Below are positions 11,396 to 55,576 of a DNA stretch of 64,000 nt, piece after piece; the first letter of the stretch is position 1, and every line of letters begins with the position of its first letter. A program made the position numbers and the translations under genes. This stretch comes from Lactiplantibacillus nangangensis (GTDB lineage: Bacteria; Bacillota; Bacilli; Lactobacillales; Lactobacillaceae), in assembly GCF_005405065.1 (NCBI RefSeq), contig NZ_BJDI01000001.1, forward strand, positions 248,001 through 312,000, written 5' to 3'. The notes beneath the pieces are model-generated. The model made no database searches. It saw nothing but the letters and a program-made list of their open reading frames with translations, and was not told where the DNA came from.

Positions 11396-11423
11396 CGCTG
11401 GATAGCTGAGCTTGCCGCTGCAG

Positions 11424-11554
11424 CCGAACTGGCTGACGCTGGAACGTGGTGGGCCGTTTGTGAGCCAAAGGGCGGTCTCACAAGCCAGCCTTTCACTAGG
11501 CCAGCAAACGACGCTGACCAAGTGAAATTTCACCACTGAGCATCAGCCAGTTCG
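11424..11554. repeat. hairpin-rich intergenic element with 12-bp inverted ends
   Basis: CGAACTGGCTGA at 11425-11436 is the exact reverse complement of TCAGCCAGTTCG at 11543-11554. Inside lie a hairpin TTGTGAGCC / GG(T)CTCACAA at 11458-11483, a CGTTTG/CAAACG pair, and the 12-bp palindrome GTGAAATTTCAC at 11522-11533. There is no reading frame of note. It looks like a structured dispersed repeat or RNA, not a gene. The rest of the gap to 11700 shows nothing I can name. Confidence 0.6.
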
Positions 11555-11700
11555 ACCTACGCTAGTGAAGAAGGACTATTTAGAACTAGTGCTAATAGGA
11601 CTAGCTTTCCTAGATATTAATGATTTGTCAGGTAGGCTTGGTGACTAGTCATAGACAAAAACACTTTAAAACTGATAAATTATCCTTTTTATAACAGTAC

Positions 11701-11863: not shown

Positions 11864-12060
11864 GTTTAAAACAATTGTCTAGTCGGAGGTCGCCGTTGAT
11901 AGCATCGGTCGTGAAGGTGGCGTTTAGCTGGTGATTTTCCAGCCTTACACCACGGACCGTCCGGGACAATTGCGTTTTTGGCAACTGTTCCGGCGAGGGG
12001 CAAGACGTTCCTGGCTTGACCCGGTCCCGCGACCGCATGCCATCAGCGGCGACCGGAGAC
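11864..12060 (-). repeat. structured ~200-bp repeat, copy A
   Basis: Read on the minus strand this is a diverged copy of 15829-16030. Shared blocks include GGAACGTCTTGCCCCTCGCC and GACGGTCCGTGGTGTAAG. It can fold into a branched structure. The outer stem is GGTCGCCGCTGAT against ATCAACGGCGACC, and inner hairpins are TTGC/GCAA and GCTGG/CCAGC. The stems differ from copy B but remain paired, which points to a selected RNA or cruciform shape. An open frame here (11859-12065, minus) is not a credible gene. Lies directly downstream of pgmB. Confidence 0.75.
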
Positions 12061-12084
12061 GGCAACGCAAGTATAAGTCTGATT

Positions 12085-12134
12085 AAAAAATGACCCGTAA
12101 TGCCGCAATTAAGCAGTCATTACGAGTCATTTTT
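12085..12134 (-). terminator. terminator downstream of pgmB
   Basis: AAAAATGACCCGTAATG (12086-12102) and CATTACGAGTCATTTTT (12118-12134) form a long stem with one mismatch. Both flanks are A/T runs, so it can act in both directions. It lies 11 bp from the pgmB stop. Confidence 0.85.
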
Positions 12135-12145
12135 AAGCTAATGGA

Positions 12146-12817
12146 TTAAGCCATTGCAGCTTCGATATTACTTAAGGTTAGTTGAGCAGTTTCGGTGAAG
12201 TTGACGTCAGCAGCGGCTAAGACCTTTGGATCGCCAATCCCAACGGACGTCTCACCCGCACCGTTGATCGATTGAACGCCGGCTGCGGCATCTTCAACCC
12301 CGATACATTGAGCTGGATCTAAGTTGAGGATTTCAGCGCCCCGACGGAAAATTTCTGGATCGGGCTTGCCATGCTTCAAGCTAGCTGGGTCAACGGACTT
12401 AGTGAAGTAGTCGCTTAAACCTAAGTGCTTGAGGACTAATGGCGAGTTTTTAGAAGCTGAGGCCAATGAAAGCAAGTAGCCCTTAGCTTTTAAATCATCC
12501 AAAAACGCTTGAATGCCAGGTAAGATGTTGGCTGGTGTCATTTGCGCAACTAATTTCAAATAGTTGTCATTCTTTTCAGTTGCCAAGGCTTCTTTTTCGG
12601 CAGCCGTGAAATCATTTTCCTTATGATCACGTGCCAAAATCAAGTTTAGTGAATCCATCCGGCTAATGCCTTTCAACGCATCCGCTAAACTGTCATCCCA
12701 TTTAACGCCAACTTTGTCAGCGACTTGATGCCAAGCCTGACTGTGAAAAATCGACGTATCCGTAATAACCCCATCTAAATCAAAAACAAATCCTTTAATA
12801 TCAGCAAATTTTGCCAT
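12146..12817 (-). CDS. pgmB: beta-phosphoglucomutase PgmB
   Basis: Converts beta-glucose-1-phosphate, the product of maltose phosphorylase, to glucose-6-phosphate. The 223-residue HAD protein shows FDLDGVITDTS (nucleophile and general acid/base Asp), the Ser motif SLASASKN, Lys in HGKPDPEIF and the metal site GVEDAAAGVQSI. The start is ATG 12817 with AGGAGG upstream; the frame stays open further upstream into map but without an initiation site. It lies 13 bp after the map stop on the same strand, so the two enzymes of maltose phosphorolysis are co-transcribed. Confidence 0.95.
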   Translation of the reverse strand: MAKFADIKGFVFDLDGVITDTSIFHSQAWHQVADKVGVKWDDSLADALKGISRMDSLNLILARDHKENDFTAAEKEALATEKNDNYLKLVAQMTPANILPGIQAFLDDLKAKGYLLSLASASKNSPLVLKHLGLSDYFTKSVDPASLKHGKPDPEIFRRGAEILNLDPAQCIGVEDAAAGVQSINGAGETSVGIGDPKVLAAADVNFTETAQLTLSNIEAAMA

Positions 12818-12830
12818 TTGAAACTTCCTC

Positions 12831-15554
12831 CTAGTTATGAGCGTATGCCACGGTAAGTGGTTTCTTAGCTTGTAATTGATAATCTTTACCAGCAATCGTA
12901 ATCGACCGTTTTTGGTCGGCCGTGACCGTGACCTTTTCATGGTTAATGACAAACGTATAGTGGGCGCCGCGGAACGTGTGCTTGAACTTCAAAGCTTCCC
13001 AATGATCTGGTAATTGTGGCGCTACTTGTAGCTGATCTGCTAAAGCGCTGACACCACCAAAGTTCCGCGTTTCAAGTAATAACGTGGCACACATGACCCC
13101 AAGATGAATCCCTTCGGCGGTCGTCCCACCTTGAATGTCGTAGTAGTCCGAGAATAGCGCTTCTGAGAAGAGTGACCAAGCTTGGTCGTAGTTTTCATCC
13201 AGTTGATTTAGAACCGCATAGACGATTCGTGACAGCGTTGAGCCGTGGGTCGTCCGTTCCAAATAATATTGAATGTTGTGCGTCAAATATTCCTTTGGTA
13301 AGGTATAGCCGAGCTTTTCAATCAATTTCTGGACGGTTGGGACGTCAAAATTGTAAAAGGCCATCAACGCATCCGCTTGTTTAGCAACTTGGTAGGCATC
13401 TGGTGTCTTACCTTCCGCTTTGAGAATCCGGTCCATCCGCGAAATATCACCAAACTTTTGCCGATAAGCATGAAAATCTAATGTTGGTAAGTTGAAGTAG
13501 CCTTCAAATTGCGCAATAATCCCACTCTTGTTGATTTCCAGCGTTAACTTGTGACTGATGTCCGCCATTTTATTGGCGAGCTCGGTATTGAAAGCTGCTG
13601 CCGACGCCGCCTTTTGATAGGCAGCGTTGTCAAGCTGTTCACGCAATTGTGCGATCGTGTCGAACAGCCAAGCTACCATGAGATTGGTATAGGCATTATT
13701 TTTCAAGCCTGGTGTTTGGTTGTTCGGATAGTTTTCGTGAAATTCGTCCGGCCCCATGACGCCAGCGATACTGTAACGGCCAGTCGTCTCATCATAAGTC
13801 GCTTTACTGATCCAGAATTGCGCGATCGATAAGAGCATTTCCATCCCATATTTAGCTAGAAAATCAGTATCTTGCGTGATATGAGTGTATGTCCAAACAT
13901 CATACGCAATATCCAGTGAAACGTGCCGCTGTAACCGACTATTGTCGGGATCCCAAGCTTGGGTGATCGGGTTCAAATGGGTGAATTGCGCCTGTTCGTC
14001 ACCTTTTTGCGCGGATTGCCAAGGATACATTGCGCCGGCAAAGCCCGCGGCCTTCGCGTTAGCTCGAGCGGCCGGAAGTCGACGATAACGATACATTAAG
14101 AGTTGCTTGGCGAGTTCCGGTCGATGCAAACTGTAGAATGGCAACATGAACATTTCATCCCAGAACACATGACCCCGATAGGCTTCACCGTGTAGTCCGC
14201 GCGCCCCCGCAGAAGCGTCTAGTTGGCCACTTTCTAAGGCGGCCGTTGAGACAAGACTATGGTAGATGTTGACCCGAGTCAGTCGTTGGCTGGTCAGGTC
14301 GCCGCGAATTTTAATATCGGCATCATGCCAAGTTTTGGCCCAGTAGTCGCTGCTAGCTTTGACGGTATCGTCGAAGCTAGCTTGGGCTAGGGACGATTCT
14401 ACCGTGTTCAGCAACGTGTCGTTTGCCACATTGCTCGTCGCGATGACCACGTTTTTATCAAAGGTATAGGTCTGCCCAGCCTGCACTTCGACGGAAAGCG
14501 TCTGTTGCACACCCTGTGGCTGATTTTTGAGTTCGATTAGTTGGCTCGTCTCACAATCGGGGCTTGTTAATTTAGCACCAAAAGTGTAATTAATCTTGGA
14601 CGATTTAGTTTCGCCGGCGAGGGTCATTGTGTTCCCACAAGATTCCATACCTAATGTTTGTAAATGATGCTGGTCAAAAACATTATACCGACTAACGTTG
14701 CCGTTGACAACGCTTCCATCAATTTCGGAGTAGATTTGCAAGCTACCAGAGAAGTTGAGGGGGGTGACCGTGTAGCGAATGCTGAAACGGTGCCAGTCTT
14801 GCATATTAGCCAGTTTTTGCGATTGGACCTGCAGCATATGGCCGGATTGCAACTGAATTAGCATCGTTGTCGTCAAAATTCCAGTTTTTAAATCGAGACT
14901 CCGATAAACGTCTTGAACGTCGCGGTCGTTGATCGTAAACGGTTCTTGGTGATCGACCCCAAACGTGATAAATTGGGCGTTGGGCAGGTTGACTAGGTCT
15001 TCATTAACGACATCGTGATCTTTGATCGTCGTGGTTTCTTGGTCAAAGACACCGGCCACATAAGTGCCAGGATAATTATTTTTATCGGCACGCGCTTCGA
15101 CGTAGGCGCCGCGCAAGCCAAAGTAGCCGTTGCCGACTGTTAGCATGGCTTCTTGCCCGTTGTTACGGACGCCTTGATATTGACCATAATAGTCGAGGTG
15201 CCATTTTAAGTAAGTTTTTTTAGCTTTTACTGCGGCCACGAGTCCGTCTTGGTCGACGGCTGCGCGACTCACAACTGGAATATTTAGCAGATTGGTTAGT
15301 GCTAAACCAACGTCAATCCGATCGTAATTGACCCCCACAATTGTATCGGAAAAGGCGTAATCCAAGCCGTTTTCAAGAATCGCCGCGTCGAATTTGAGCC
15401 CCGCTAATCTGACTTTGATATTTTCTAGGTTATCGTTAATTGATTGGTCTGGATTGTAAGCAATCGCGTAACGGGTCGTTGCTGGGCCGTCAGCGCTTGG
15501 GTAGTAAGCAATGTTCATCGCATCGTTTTCAATTCGTAATTTAATCAGTTGCAT
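12831..15554 (-). CDS. maltose phosphorylase-type GH65 enzyme
   Basis: A 907-residue GH65 glycoside phosphorylase that should split maltose (or a related alpha-glucobiose) with phosphate into glucose and beta-glucose-1-phosphate. The catalytic motif VMGPDEFHE sits near residue 600, in a long (alpha/alpha)6-barrel region with DEMFMLPFYSLHRPELAKQLL ahead of it. The protein is about 150 residues longer than the commonest maltose phosphorylases, the extra lying at the N-terminus. The start is ATG 15554 with AAGGAG 8 nt upstream. Partner pgmB follows at 13 bp. Maltose is the likeliest substrate from the pairing, but trehalose, kojibiose or nigerose phosphorylases share the fold. Confidence 0.88.
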   Translation of the reverse strand: MQLIKLRIENDAMNIAYYPSADGPATTRYAIAYNPDQSINDNLENIKVRLAGLKFDAAILENGLDYAFSDTIVGVNYDRIDVGLALTNLLNIPVVSRAAVDQDGLVAAVKAKKTYLKWHLDYYGQYQGVRNNGQEAMLTVGNGYFGLRGAYVEARADKNNYPGTYVAGVFDQETTTIKDHDVVNEDLVNLPNAQFITFGVDHQEPFTINDRDVQDVYRSLDLKTGILTTTMLIQLQSGHMLQVQSQKLANMQDWHRFSIRYTVTPLNFSGSLQIYSEIDGSVVNGNVSRYNVFDQHHLQTLGMESCGNTMTLAGETKSSKINYTFGAKLTSPDCETSQLIELKNQPQGVQQTLSVEVQAGQTYTFDKNVVIATSNVANDTLLNTVESSLAQASFDDTVKASSDYWAKTWHDADIKIRGDLTSQRLTRVNIYHSLVSTAALESGQLDASAGARGLHGEAYRGHVFWDEMFMLPFYSLHRPELAKQLLMYRYRRLPAARANAKAAGFAGAMYPWQSAQKGDEQAQFTHLNPITQAWDPDNSRLQRHVSLDIAYDVWTYTHITQDTDFLAKYGMEMLLSIAQFWISKATYDETTGRYSIAGVMGPDEFHENYPNNQTPGLKNNAYTNLMVAWLFDTIAQLREQLDNAAYQKAASAAAFNTELANKMADISHKLTLEINKSGIIAQFEGYFNLPTLDFHAYRQKFGDISRMDRILKAEGKTPDAYQVAKQADALMAFYNFDVPTVQKLIEKLGYTLPKEYLTHNIQYYLERTTHGSTLSRIVYAVLNQLDENYDQAWSLFSEALFSDYYDIQGGTTAEGIHLGVMCATLLLETRNFGGVSALADQLQVAPQLPDHWEALKFKHTFRGAHYTFVINHEKVTVTADQKRSITIAGKDYQLQAKKPLTVAYAHN

Positions 15555-15828
15555 TGAATAACCACTCCTTAGTTAGTTGACTGAAAAAACGTCATAGATA
15601 AGTAGAAAAAGTTTATCTCACTATCAAGCCTAGACCAGATTTTTGGGTGTTTCAAATATTGTCACCGTCAGCGCGGTCCTGTTCGCAGAAAGATGAAATT
15701 AATAATTAAGTTGAATAAACTAGTGTGTTTACTTGCTTTCACGGGAGTTTTCAGGACGATAATTAAAGTTTGAAAGCTAATTCGTCCCGCTGCTTTAGTG
15801 ATTAGATAACGAAAGATAGTCGCTGATT

Positions 15829-16030
15829 GTCGCTTCCGGTTATTGCTGATAACATGCGGACGAGGGACCGGGGCAAGCCTTAGGAACGTCTTGCCCCTCG
15901 CCTGGAAGCTCTGCTGAGCCCGCAGATTTCCCAGACGGTCCGTGGTGTAAGACCGGAAAAGCACCGGTCAAACGCCACCCACACGCCCGATGCAATCAGC
16001 AACAGCCTTCAGCTAGTCAACTGTTTTAAG
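15829..16030 (+). repeat. structured ~200-bp repeat, copy B
   Basis: Plus-strand counterpart of copy A, so the two form imperfect inverted repeats about 4 kb apart around map-pgmB. Stems are kept by compensating changes: ACCGG/CCGGT here versus GCTGG/CCAGC in A, CTGC/GCAG versus TTGC/GCAA, and TTGCTGAT/ATCAGCAA versus CCGCTGAT/ATCAACGG. It also has a perfect GGGGCAAG/CTTGCCCC stem. The ~270 bp between this copy and map, and the ~210 bp after it, hold no gene I can support; the open frame at 15668-15964 (minus) is judged spurious. Confidence 0.75.
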
Positions 16031-16243
16031 TGATTAGCCAATCGTTCAGATAGCACACTGAATCTGGCTGACGAAGTGATACGAAATATAGGACCATCTT
16101 AGACATGGTCAATACTGATATTATTGGATTTATGAGTGATTTGTTATTTTCAATCTTTGGGACGGTAATTTAAGGGCTAGTGGGCGGGTTCGCGTCAAAT
16201 GTGTTCACTGAATGAAGCTTGGTGCCGACGTCAAAATGGCCGC

Positions 16244-16717: not shown

Positions 16718-16861
16718 GCGGATCACCTTCTTTGGTTCTAGTATGCCGGAAGTGGTCGGGACTTGTCATGCGTTATGCTCAAATTAGCGCGATTTTAGGG
16801 TATAAAAAAAATCAGCTCTCACGGTGGATTATCACGGCGTGAAAACTGATTAGTGGTTATG

Positions 16862-16877
16862 GATGGGCAGTCAGGGG
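16862..16877 (+). other. attL core
   Basis: GATGGGCAGTCAGGGG, identical to 31312-31327 at the 3' end of tRNA-Lys. The ~55 bp to its left also resembles the sequence left of attR (an AACCAGT/ACTGGTT-type terminator hairpin, here AATCAGC...CTGATT). This side therefore looks like the old tRNA 3' end and terminator displaced by integration. Confidence 0.85.
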
Positions 16878-16950
16878 TTTGAACCCAACTGAAACATAAA
16901 CGCTATTAAACCAGTGCTTATGCGGTGTTTCACGTGAGACTTTTTACCTT

Positions 16951-16975: not shown

Positions 16976-17016
16976 CTATGAAGTGTTAAAATAACCCAGT
17001 TTCCTGCTAGAACTGA

Positions 17017-17127
17017 AAATGTTTTTTTTAACGTGGTACACGTGGTACACGCAGACAATCGTTGATATAACAACGTTTCAAAGCGCCCTAACGTGGTTCA
17101 TTACCCAGTACAACGTGGTACACTTAG
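17017..17127 (-). repeat. origin-like iteron repeat, left copy
   Basis: About 110 bp, reverse complement of 22011-22121 with about three substitutions. It carries ACGTGGTACAC iterons on both sides of an AT-rich dyad (CGTTGATATAACAACG). It sits between the integrase stop and attL. See the right copy for the interpretation. Confidence 0.75.
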
Positions 17128-17152: not shown

Positions 17153-18307
17153 TTAAAAGCCTAAATAATTGGCTAACTTGTTGGCCGCCTGTTGATTTTG
17201 GCCATTAGTGACGTGCGTGTAAACATTTAGGGTTGTTGCAACGTCCTCATGGCCTAATCGGGTTTGTACTTCTTTAATGGTGGCACCAGCGGCAAACAGA
17301 GCGGAGGCGTGACTGTGTCGAAATCCATGTACGGTAATACTAGGGGTTAAGTGGTAGTCAGTGATGATCCGCTTTAACCACTTACCCGGAGTATTAAGTG
17401 ATTTAAAACCGTTCTTAGTGTTAGCAAAAACTAACTGATCCGGCTGTAACGTATTAAAACCTAAAAACAAATAATATTCACGTTGCTGTTTATGCCAGCG
17501 TTGTAATATTTCTACCGTCGTATTGTCTAAGCTGACAGTGCGGCGGCCCTTTTTTGTCTTAGGGGCTTGAATAATCTGCTTGCCGCGTTTCCCTTGGGTA
17601 AGTGTTTTATTAACCCGCAAGGTCTTATGGACAAAGTCAATATCTTGCCATGTCAGGGCTAAACACTCGCCACGTCGCACGCCTGCAAACGCTAGTACCC
17701 GGAAGAGACAATACTTTTCGGGTTCTTTTTGCTGGTCAATGCACTTGAAGAACGTCTTTAGTTGATCGCGATCCCAGAAGTTATCGGGCTTATCACCCCA
17801 ACTATCAGGCTTGACCGGCATTGTAATCATTCTAGCTGGATTATGTGTGATATAGCCGTGTTTTAAGCCGTATTCAAAGACTGATACCAGATAATTGTAC
17901 CAACGCTTGTAATTGTACGTGACTTCTTTAAACCATAGATTAACAGCACGCTGGCACTGGTTGACGGTGATGGTTCGTAACCGCTTGTTACCAAACAACG
18001 GCAAGATGTGATTATCGAACATACCAGCAGTCCTTGCCCAAGTGCTTTCACGAACGGTATTAATATACTGGTCGTACCATTCATGATAGACGTCAACGAA
18101 GAGAATATTGTTATCAACTGGTAAAACCGGTTCTTGCTGTAACTCTACTTCAATTCTGGATAAAGCAATACGAGCAGCGCTTTTTGATTTAAAGCCCCGA
18201 CGCCGGGTTGATTTCTTTTTACCAGTTTGAGGATCAACACCTAAATAAACTTGAAACTGATAACGGGTATTCCCGTCCTTGTCCTGATACTTCTTGATTG
18301 TTGCCAT
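17153..18307 (-). CDS. int: tyrosine-recombinase integrase
   Basis: A 384-residue phage-type integrase that inserts and excises the element at tRNA-Lys. Order: an N-terminal AP2-like arm-binding region (residues 1-~50, YQFQVYLGVDPQTGKK), a SAM-like core-binding domain (~60-165), and the catalytic domain with FAGVRRGECLALTW (Arg), HGFRHSHASAL (His-x-x-Arg) and LGHEDVATTLNVYTHV (Tyr near residue 368). The start is ATG 18307 behind GGAGG. It reads toward attL and lies about 275 bp from it, the usual placement. Confidence 0.95.
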   Translation of the reverse strand: MATIKKYQDKDGNTRYQFQVYLGVDPQTGKKKSTRRRGFKSKSAARIALSRIEVELQQEPVLPVDNNILFVDVYHEWYDQYINTVRESTWARTAGMFDNHILPLFGNKRLRTITVNQCQRAVNLWFKEVTYNYKRWYNYLVSVFEYGLKHGYITHNPARMITMPVKPDSWGDKPDNFWDRDQLKTFFKCIDQQKEPEKYCLFRVLAFAGVRRGECLALTWQDIDFVHKTLRVNKTLTQGKRGKQIIQAPKTKKGRRTVSLDNTTVEILQRWHKQQREYYLFLGFNTLQPDQLVFANTKNGFKSLNTPGKWLKRIITDYHLTPSITVHGFRHSHASALFAAGATIKEVQTRLGHEDVATTLNVYTHVTNGQNQQAANKLANYLGF

Positions 18308-22010: not shown

Positions 22011-22121
22011 CTAAGTGTACCACGTTGTACCGGGTAATGAACCACGTTAGGGCACTTTGAAACGTTGTTATATCAACGATTGTCTGCGTGTACCACGTGT
22101 ACCACGTTAAAAAGAACATTT
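22011..22121 (+). other. origin-like iteron sequence (candidate ori), right copy
   Basis: Several GTGTACCACG-type iterons (22016-22025; 22088-22097; 22097-22106) and half-sites (TTGTACC, GAACCACGT) flank an AT-rich dyad, CGTTGTTATATCAACG (22063-22078). The placement right after vapE and the iteron/AT-rich/iteron design match SaPI-type origins. A near-identical inverted copy lies at 17017-17127. Confidence 0.7.
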
Positions 22122-22143
22122 CCAAGTACAGGAGGAAACACGT

Positions 22144-31206: not shown

Positions 31207-31311
31207 TTGAAAAAAGATGACAACTGATGATAACGGTGCTTGCATTTAAAATACAAAAAAACCAGTAATCACGGTGTTTTGACACTGCATGAAAACTGGT
31301 TAATGGTTTAT

Positions 31312-31327
31312 GATGGGCAGTCAGGGG
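31312..31327 (+). other. attR core within the tRNA-Lys 3' end
   Basis: GATGGGCAGTCAGGGG, identical to the left core. It covers the acceptor/T-stem 3' side of tRNA-Lys, so insertion leaves an intact tRNA at this end. Just left, an AACCAGT...ACTGGTT stem bounded by an A-run (minus-strand T-run) supplies a replacement tRNA terminator. Confidence 0.85.
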
Positions 31328-31386
31328 ATCGAACCCTGGACCCACGGATTAAGAGTCCGTTGCTCTGCCAGCTGAGCTAACTGCCC
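31314..31386 (-). tRNA. tRNA-Lys (anticodon CTT)
   Basis: Read on the minus strand: GGGCAGT acceptor, TAGCTCAGCTGGCAGAGC D-arm, anticodon arm CGGACTCTTAATCCG with loop CTCTTAA (anticodon CTT at 31353-31351), variable loop, GGGTTCGATCCC T-loop, ACTGCCC acceptor and discriminator A. It folds as a complete cloverleaf of 73 nt; CCA is not encoded. It is the integration target of the satellite. Confidence 0.97.
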
Positions 31387-44461: not shown

Positions 44462-45283
44462 GTATTCCCCACATACGTAGGGATGATCCTATTAGCCATT
44501 AGTTGGCCTCCTTTTGATTTTTGTATTCCCCACATACGTAGGGATGATCCTACTTCATCTCCAGCAAACACTTCACCAGTTAAGTATTCCCCACATACGT
44601 AGGGATGATCCTGATTTTTCCAGGATTGTCGCTTACTGGCAAACGTATTCCCCACATACGTAGGGATGATCCCTGCTGCAGCACATATCCCATCGGCTTA
44701 TCATCGTATTCCCCACATACGTAGGGATGATCCCGAGCTTGAAGCTACCAAAGCCACAGGGCTCGAGTATTCCCCACATACGTAGGGATGATCCTCACAC
44801 CAATTATTCCATCGAAATATGGTTATGGTATTCCCCACATACGTAGGGATGATCCTGATGAATCGATTAAGATGCTTGTTCTTGCATCGTATTCCCCACA
44901 TACGTAGGGATGATCCTGTTACACCGACAACGGCAGCAACAACCGGAATGTATTCCCCACATACGTAGGGATGATCCTCATCACTACTAACTCCCTCATG
45001 CAGATTCTGAGTATTCCCCACATACGTAGGGATGATCCTGATGATTGGGTTATCAGTGCTGCATTTAAAGGGTATTCCCCACATACGTAGGGATGATCCC
45101 GAACATGTCAATAAGTTATACGCCATAGCAAAGGTATTCCCCACATACGTAGGGATGATCCTAGTAATCGTTTCCTGAAGCACTGAATCATCCAGTATTC
45201 CCCACATACGTAGGGATGATCCTCGCACGCCAATGGTGTCAAGAAAATTCGTTGGGTGTTCCCCACATATTGTGGGGGTGATT
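44462..45283 (+). CRISPR. type I-E CRISPR array 1 (14 repeats, 13 spacers)
   Basis: The 28-nt repeat (29 if the near-constant following T/C is counted) begins GTATTCCCCAC, has loop ATAC and ends GTAGGGATGATCC. Starts are 44462, 44523, 44584, 44645, 44706, 44767, 44828, 44889, 44950, 45011, 45072, 45134, 45195 and 45256. The period is 61 bp with one 62. The first 13 repeats are identical; the last is diverged (GTGTTCCCCACATATTGTGG). Repeat orientation matches plus-strand transcription, with the leader to the left ending TTTTTAGT. Minus-strand frames through it are artefacts of the 61-bp period. Confidence 0.98.
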
Positions 45284-55126: not shown

Positions 55127-55520
55127 GTATTCCCCACGTATGTAGGGATGATCCAACATGAAAATTAATGCTAAAAACTATTTCAAAGTATTCCCCACGT
55201 ATGTAGGGATGATCCTTACCTTGTAAATTCGTGTATTGATCTACAATAGTATTCCCCACGTATGTAGGGATGATCCCTAGCTTGGCGTCAATCATCATCT
55301 TCATGACAGGTATTCCCCACGTATGTAGGGATGATCCTTCGTCGACGTGGTACAAAACATTCAGCGTAATGTATTCCCCACGTATGTAGGGATGATCCTA
55401 CGAGAAAGTTCTGGATAAAACTAGACATTGAGTATTCCCCACGTATGTAGGGATGATCCTTAAACGTGTGAACTGCGATAGGGGATAGTCCAGTATTCCC
55501 CACGTATGTAGGGACGATTG
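55127..55520 (+). CRISPR. type I-E CRISPR array 2 (7 repeats, 6 spacers)
   Basis: The repeat is identical to array 1 except the four-base loop: GTAT instead of ATAC. Starts are 55127, 55188, 55249, 55310, 55371, 55432 and 55493, all 61 bp apart; the last repeat is diverged at its end (GGGACGATTG). The leader is only about 30 bp long after cas2, ends TTTTTAGT like that of array 1, and may extend into the cas2 3' end. Confidence 0.98.
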
Positions 55521-55576
55521 ATTACGTTGGTCAATGAAAAAATAGTCCGTCAAAATTTCAGTTGTAAGTAATCTAA

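Follow-up and report, generated by a model that had tools for sequence, protein, structure and literature searches.

Structured extragenic repeats on either side of the pgmB-map genes of Lactiplantibacillus nangangensis: an apparently undescribed, almost certainly mobile family

Several families of small repeats are known from bacterial genomes. REP repeats, covered in part by PMC3733652, are extragenic and palindromic; they lie at gene 3' ends, are rare in divergent gaps and often form inverted pairs. The repeats bcr1 to bcr18 of the Bacillus cereus group are 100-400 bp long, reach up to ~130 copies, and are mobile and group-restricted, their mobility being tied to a TTTAT motif (PMC6542083). 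BOX, RUP and SPRITE of Streptococcus pneumoniae are modular intergenic stem-loop repeats, and these elements are found inserted in one another (PMC10969869). Among the insertion sequences (ISs), the ISPepr1 subgroup measures 1500-1600 bp, has ends of the form YT-AA-YTT---A and generates direct repeats of 7-8 bp (PMC2266710, Table 1). Here, a stretch of 64,000 nt from L. nangangensis (assembly GCF_005405065.1, contig NZ_BJDI01000001.1, positions 248,001 to 312,000 of the forward strand; termed the window) was analysed. In it, two inverted copies of a structured module, R1, lie on either side of the pgmB and maltose phosphorylase (map) genes, and a related module, R2, lies next to the first of them. 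These modules almost certainly belong to a mobile structured family. It is also reasonably likely that this is a superfamily of REP/BIME-like extragenic modules of 150-200 nt, which is spread by miniature inverted-repeat transposable elements (MITEs) and whose action, if any, is at transcript ends.

The fold is the most telling property of the family. Fifty-five R1 copies from the L. nangangensis genome share one three-hairpin fold; they yielded a covariance model of 194 positions and 64 pairs. In their alignment, which is based on sequence only, 97.8% of the paired cells hold standard pairs and 27 of the 64 pairs are changed on both sides. Doubly changed paired cells amount to 235 compared to 70 in shuffles, and they fall to 28-43 when the partner is slid by 1-3 columns. 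Among 49 matches from 11 genomes, aligned by fitting to the model and thus with a bias towards it, 61 of the 64 pairs carry a double change in at least one match; such cells number 785 versus 213 in shuffles and 74-145 in slid controls. For R2, 27 of 54 pairs are compensated in 28 copies from the same genome. Wobble cells are unevenly distributed, with 181 G.U versus 40 A.C in the 55 R1 copies and 79 versus 15 in R2. For R1 this excess of G.U points to one strand as the folding strand, and this strand is the more stable one in 54 of 55 copies. One G.U pair is near-invariant in each module (R1 columns 97-122 in 54/55 copies, R2 columns 103-109 in 27/28). Hairpin-loop motifs are conserved in the modules, the loops differ between subfamilies, and unpaired internal loops stay at the same positions across copies. 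The shape of the module is kept by evolution while its letters change. Selection on the fold, which the original prediction had proposed, is therefore very probable in view of the heavy compensatory change across copies.

The two window copies were first noticed as diverged inverted blocks beside pgmB-map whose stems had altered and still paired, and this description was accurate. The blocks (11866-12065, plus strand; 15827-16029, minus strand) show 77-78% identity across both main parts, and a run of 21 nt is identical between them. Stem 1 reads GCTGG (11927)/CCAGC (11939) in copy 1 versus ACCGG/CCGGT in copy 2, stem 2 TTGC (11970)/GCAA (11981) versus CTGC/GCAG, and stem 3 CCGTTGAT (11893)/ATCAGCGG (12042) versus TTGCTGAT/ATCAGCAA. 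For stem 3, the pairing holds; the strand given for copy 1 has to be corrected, as it had been written from the opposite strand, where a C.A mismatch stands in the place of the G.U pair of the folding strand. Both copies fold into an identical closed architecture composed of a long outer stem and three hairpins. Their folding energies lie well below those of shuffled sequences (z of -6.7 for copy 1 and -5.7 for copy 2), and none of 200 shuffles was as low. Since the genome contains 86 R1 copies (see below), chance is excluded as the origin of the pair. The gap beside copy 1 also contains an R2 module, which is absent from the original prediction. The features of the window are as follows:

11412..11564, minus strand: R2 module with the same termini as R1 (TAGC..GG, stem, CC..GCGGCAA), divergent to R1 copy 1; R2 covariance model, 159.9 bits; counterpart at the equivalent position in daoliensis
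11875..12065, plus strand: R1 module copy 1, A-type; R1 covariance model, 202 bits; no terminal inverted repeat (TIR) detected; conservation ends at the module edges (boundary analysis of 25 A-type copies)
12086..12134, no strand assigned: bidirectional terminator-like hairpin (A-tract, stem, T-tract) a short way past R1 copy 1 on its right side; found as an inverted repeat, with equivalent placement in other copies
12146..15554, minus strand: pgmB and maltose phosphorylase genes, given as context; open reading frames (ORFs), collinear in relatives
15754..15762, no strand assigned: target-site duplication (TSD), low side, GGACGATAA, read from the sequence
15763..16159, minus strand: decayed 397-bp MITE holding R1 copy 2, from TIR scan and sequence
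15763-15775 and 16148-16159: ends of this MITE, TTAAAGTTTGAAA and TTTCAATCTTTG, each with 2 mismatches to CTAAAGGTTGAAA
15827..16020, minus strand: R1 module copy 2, B-type, within the MITE; R1 covariance model, 207.4 bits
16160..16168, no strand assigned: TSD, high side, GGACGGTAA, 8/9 identical to the low-side GGACGATAA

Copies are abundant. BLAST with each window copy returned at least ~40 matches, and a search with the covariance model, as suggested along with the original prediction, found 86 full or nearly full R1 copies above 80 bits in the 2.9-Mb genome. Additional matches comprise 39 weak opposite-strand echoes of counted sites and three fragments. R1 is present in 14 of the 60 genomes searched, L. 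nangangensis included: 13 of 21 Lactiplantibacillus genomes and one from another genus of the family. A deeper search gave more than 100 R1 matches in some genomes. R2, which was detected by a search with the sequence adjoining R1 copy 1, occurs in 19 of the 21 Lactiplantibacillus genomes. It shares the termini of R1 (TAGC..GG / CC..GCGGCAA) and differs in the interior. Because the covariance models each match members of the other, R1 and R2 are treated as one superfamily. Modules are found alone, within MITEs or, often, in divergent inverted pairs with the GCGGCAA ends outward. Relatives of R2 reside on plasmids of L. plantarum, L. paraplantarum, L. pentosus and Ligilactobacillus, with no annotation under the match. 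Phage and plasmid collections searched with the window R1 copy gave no match. The family had been presented as unrecognised, and this agrees with Rfam: only a tRNA in the whole window exceeded the threshold, and nothing credible appeared at low threshold, where the best sub-threshold match was msiK with 19.1 bits compared to a gathering threshold of 33. A description of the repeat in Lactobacillus or Lactiplantibacillus, or of the MITE of copy 2 or its module, was not found in the open-access literature. The family is large, with tens to more than 100 copies per genome across Lactiplantibacillus, and apparently undescribed.

Mobility is seen in the genome of a relative, G020. There, R1 copies match almost perfectly for as much as 541-544 bp, end sharply (CTAAAGGTTGAAA...TTTCAACCTTTAG) and are flanked by 7-10-bp duplications of unrelated sequence, among them CAAAATAA, TCTAGGTT and ACCAAGTAA. 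These copies are 362-544 bp long, non-coding and have both TIR and TSD; B-type copies are thus MITEs. The same genome carries an intact 1567-bp element (G020:C1:64426-65992) with the CTAAAGGTTGAAA ends of the MITE and the TSD ATAGGAG. It contains one 457-aa ORF, a DDE transposase with the Pfam domains DDE_5 and DDE_Tnp_1 and, as read from the translation, the YREK motif Y-(2)-R-(3)-E-(6)-K (YARRWQIEGYFKIAK). Judged by the table in PMC2266710, its length, its ends (7 of 8 conserved positions in CTAAAGGTTGAAA) and its repeat ATAGGAG correspond to the ISPepr1 subgroup. The partner IS in G020 is accordingly classified, from its sequence, as a putative ISPepr1-like member of the IS4 family.

In the window, recognisable transposon ends surround copy 2 only, a MITE with decayed TIRs and a 9-bp TSD. 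The concern raised initially that the blocks might belong to a MITE with transposase-derived ends applies to copy 2, whose ends are of the IS4/ISPepr1 type, and not to copy 1, which is without such ends. In 25 A-type copies, no TIR beyond chance was found within 600 nt and no consistent TSD distance, so that these are not recognisable as MITEs; old insertions could have lost TIRs and TSDs. A divergent R2 pair occupies one site in the L. nangangensis genome, and the equivalent site in G020 is empty, with a few bases in place of ~360. In a further genome, G019, paired R2-type modules are located in ~950-bp elements (L248, L254) with different inverted ends (ACGCGTTGTGCTA...TAGCACAACGCGT); their target duplications are not clear. 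Because the ends in G019 differ and A-type copies are without ends, the module is separable from the transposon ends. The original prediction had offered a non-coding RNA family and a mobile repeat as alternatives. Mobility stands, and the choice between the two falls away, since this is a mobile repeat with a conserved fold.

Some modules have remained at their sites. A divergent R2 pair between two genes with the putative names phosphotransferase system (PTS) IIA and beta-glucosidase is kept in L. nangangensis, G009 and G011; G020 retains most of it, and the pair in G011 has received an R1 MITE in its interior. For the first pair member, compensated pairs number 2-6 among the orthologs and one-sided breaks 1-7. 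Between the L. nangangensis and G020 orthologs, 16 of 54 unpaired positions are changed versus 6 of 53 pairs. At the R2 site of the window, comparison with songbeiensis (64% identity) revealed 15 compensated pairs, while pairing was lost in 2 pairs with both sides changed and in 1 with a single side changed; this difference could reflect replacement instead of descent in place. Taken together, the ortholog sequences modestly support selection in place.

R1 insertions are extragenic, mostly at gene 3' ends and frequently beside terminators. With gene calls from longest-ORF heuristics, 75 of the 76 copies with readable context fall into 35 convergent, 36 co-directional and 4 divergent gaps. This corresponds to the placement of REP/BIME at extragenic 3' ends with avoidance of divergent gaps. 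Where the neighbouring genes are co-directional, the folding strand runs antisense to them in 30 cases and sense in 6 (p = 7e-5); window copy 2 belongs to the rarer sense orientation. A terminator-like hairpin is located within ~110 nt of the right end in 29/76 copies and of the left end in 7/76.

A plausible course of events would be that the module spreads as a MITE passenger with the transposase acting in trans, and that it persists because its structure does no harm at transcript ends or is of use there, as in REP/BIME. Placed at the 3' end or past it, the structure might limit read-through or decay. This 3'-end role, drawn by analogy, is a tentative proposal. A candidate RNA role of the module is read from the covariation and the strand-specific wobble.

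Several observations weigh against this overall reading. The main difficulty is that the strand with the better fold mostly runs antisense to the gene upstream, which does not fit a simple read-through element in the 3' untranslated region; an antisense RNA, a role at the DNA level or selection against the sense orientation could each come into play here. The orientation counts themselves depend on heuristic gene calls and on copies that share ancestry. Part of the R1 covariation in the 55-copy alignment reflects the subfamilies A and B, although some pairs show three or four pair types. The second member of the R2 pair has 0 compensated pairs and 3-5 one-sided breaks among its orthologs, a small test. 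Furthermore, no intact homologue of the G020 transposase was found in the L. nangangensis genome, and no promoter for a module rises above the level of shuffles.

Alternatively, selection on the fold could act on the DNA and serve mobility: as a single strand or a cruciform, the hairpins of the element would help transposition, targeting to the side of terminators or escape from repair, with no role for the host. The modules are mobile, their insertions adjoin terminator hairpins with an orientation bias, and inverted module pairs form giant palindromes (a 541-bp element reaches -233 kcal/mol), all of which would suit such a mechanism. Internal structure, however, is not known to be a requirement of IS4-type DDE transposons. 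In addition, the ends differ by species (CTAAAGG in G020, ACGCGTTGTGCTA in G019), A-type copies without such ends still keep the fold, and copies stay put and keep pairing. Selection for mobility of this kind appears unlikely.

Slightly less likely still is a trans-acting small RNA gene turned mobile, whose transcript would come from the folding strand and stop at the bidirectional terminator next to it. It would account for the strand-specific conservation of G.U pairs, the conserved hairpin-loop motifs and the terminators that read away from the right end in 18/76 copies. A promoter-like site (10/12) precedes copy 2 at 16112-16085. Against it stand the shuffle-level frequency of such sites (a promoter scan of both window gaps gave two sites each compared to about one expected), the variation of the loops between subfamilies and the number of copies, as about a hundred diverged copies per genome would be unusual for one small RNA.

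A more far-reaching idea is that the module is an independent structured passenger, which transposons of no common origin have packaged repeatedly, with IS4-type ends in one group of species and different inverted ends in a second, and whose RNA or folded single strand directs where or how insertions settle, beside terminators in one orientation. We regard this as quite speculative and improbable.

Neutral covariation, in which template switching at quasi-palindromes corrects one arm against the other, is very improbable. All stems are near-perfect inverted repeats and thus substrates, and inverted module pairs lie close together. Yet such correction would erase wobbles and loops, whereas the G.U pairs are near-invariant (54/55 and 27/28) and internal loops persist; moreover, unpaired positions change more than pairs in the comparison with G020 (16/54 versus 6/53).

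The pgmB-map locus was also compared across relatives. From 8.0 to 16.9 kb, the genes on both sides keep their order and orientation in pingfangensis, daoliensis, dongliensis and songbeiensis. In the gap of copy 1, the R2 module is retained in daoliensis, at 88% identity in BLAST compared to 80-82% for the neighbouring genes, and R1 is missing there. The same gap holds a complete MITE flanked by a TTTGTTA duplication in pingfangensis and an R2 in songbeiensis, and the remaining relatives contain R1- or R2-like members. In the gap of copy 2, daoliensis carries a MITE oriented opposite to window copy 2, and pingfangensis a diverged R1-like module upstream of map (L161, 5594-5779; 93 bits) with almost wholly different stem sequence. 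Because the genes are collinear while the gaps carry different or opposite insertions, the symmetry of the repeats around pgmB-map is accidental. A tie of the repeats to the map operon was not borne out: the repeats at these sites differ between species. Flanking pairs are expected, since 86 R1 copies over 2.9 Mb, or about one every 34 kb, are accompanied by about as many R2 matches. That the pair bounds an invertible or transposable 4-kb map segment, an idea prompted by the two inverted copies flanking pgmB-map, can practically be dismissed, as gene order and orientation are unchanged in the four relatives (a comparison between species) and each gap has its separate insertion history.

The opposite MITEs of the window (15754-15762/16160-16168) and daoliensis (L165, 5100-6000) sit at nearly the same target upstream of map, with duplications ending in ..GTCC and ..GTCCT. 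They reflect either recurrent insertion or inversion in place.

Other features of the window concern different systems. Two CRISPR arrays (44462-45270 and 55127-55524) have near-identical 28-nt repeats (GTATTCCCCACATACGTAGGGATGATCC) with 61-nt spacing and are type I-E-like. Direct repeats of 79% identity lie at 16805-16886 and at 31255-31336, where the repeat overlaps a tRNA gene (31314-31386). With an integrase-like ORF (17153-18307) between them, they look like the att sites of a putative 14-kb integrated island. Within this island, a 129-nt inverted repeat (16999-17127 and 22011-22139) is 93% complementary.

A food and probiotic genus, with L. plantarum and L. pentosus among its species, seems to hold tens to more than 100 unannotated structured elements per genome beside gene ends. 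If the modules shape transcript ends, expression would be affected genome-wide. If they are purely selfish, they would illustrate with unusual clarity how a passenger of transposons can conserve its secondary structure and not its sequence. The strong covariation provides ready-made annotation models and a natural experiment on structured MITEs.

How does the family compare with known systems? Like IS4/ISPepr1 MITEs, its elements are short and non-coding and have TIRs and 7-10-bp duplications. They depart from these in their interior, which does not derive from an IS and consists of a conserved structured module that also exists without these ends or, in G019, within other ends. With REP/BIME of enterobacteria and pseudomonads, the modules share the extragenic 3'-end location, the rarity in divergent gaps, the inverted pairs and the palindromic nature. 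They differ as units, since they are multi-hairpin modules of 150-200 nt compared to 20-40 nt for REP, and their ends are TAGC/GCGGCAA with no GTAG/CGTC tag. Compared by description, the bcr repeats are similar in size range, copy number, mobility and group restriction, but have the TTTAT motif, whereas IS4-type TIRs and 7-10-bp duplications are found here. Similarly, BOX/RUP/SPRITE are modular, contain stem-loops and show nested insertion, as does the R1 MITE within an R2 pair, and differ, as far as known, in termini, lengths and fold. The known kind is therefore that of MITE-borne, structured, 3'-end-biased repeats, and the family reported here is a variant of it for which no earlier description was found in the open-access literature.

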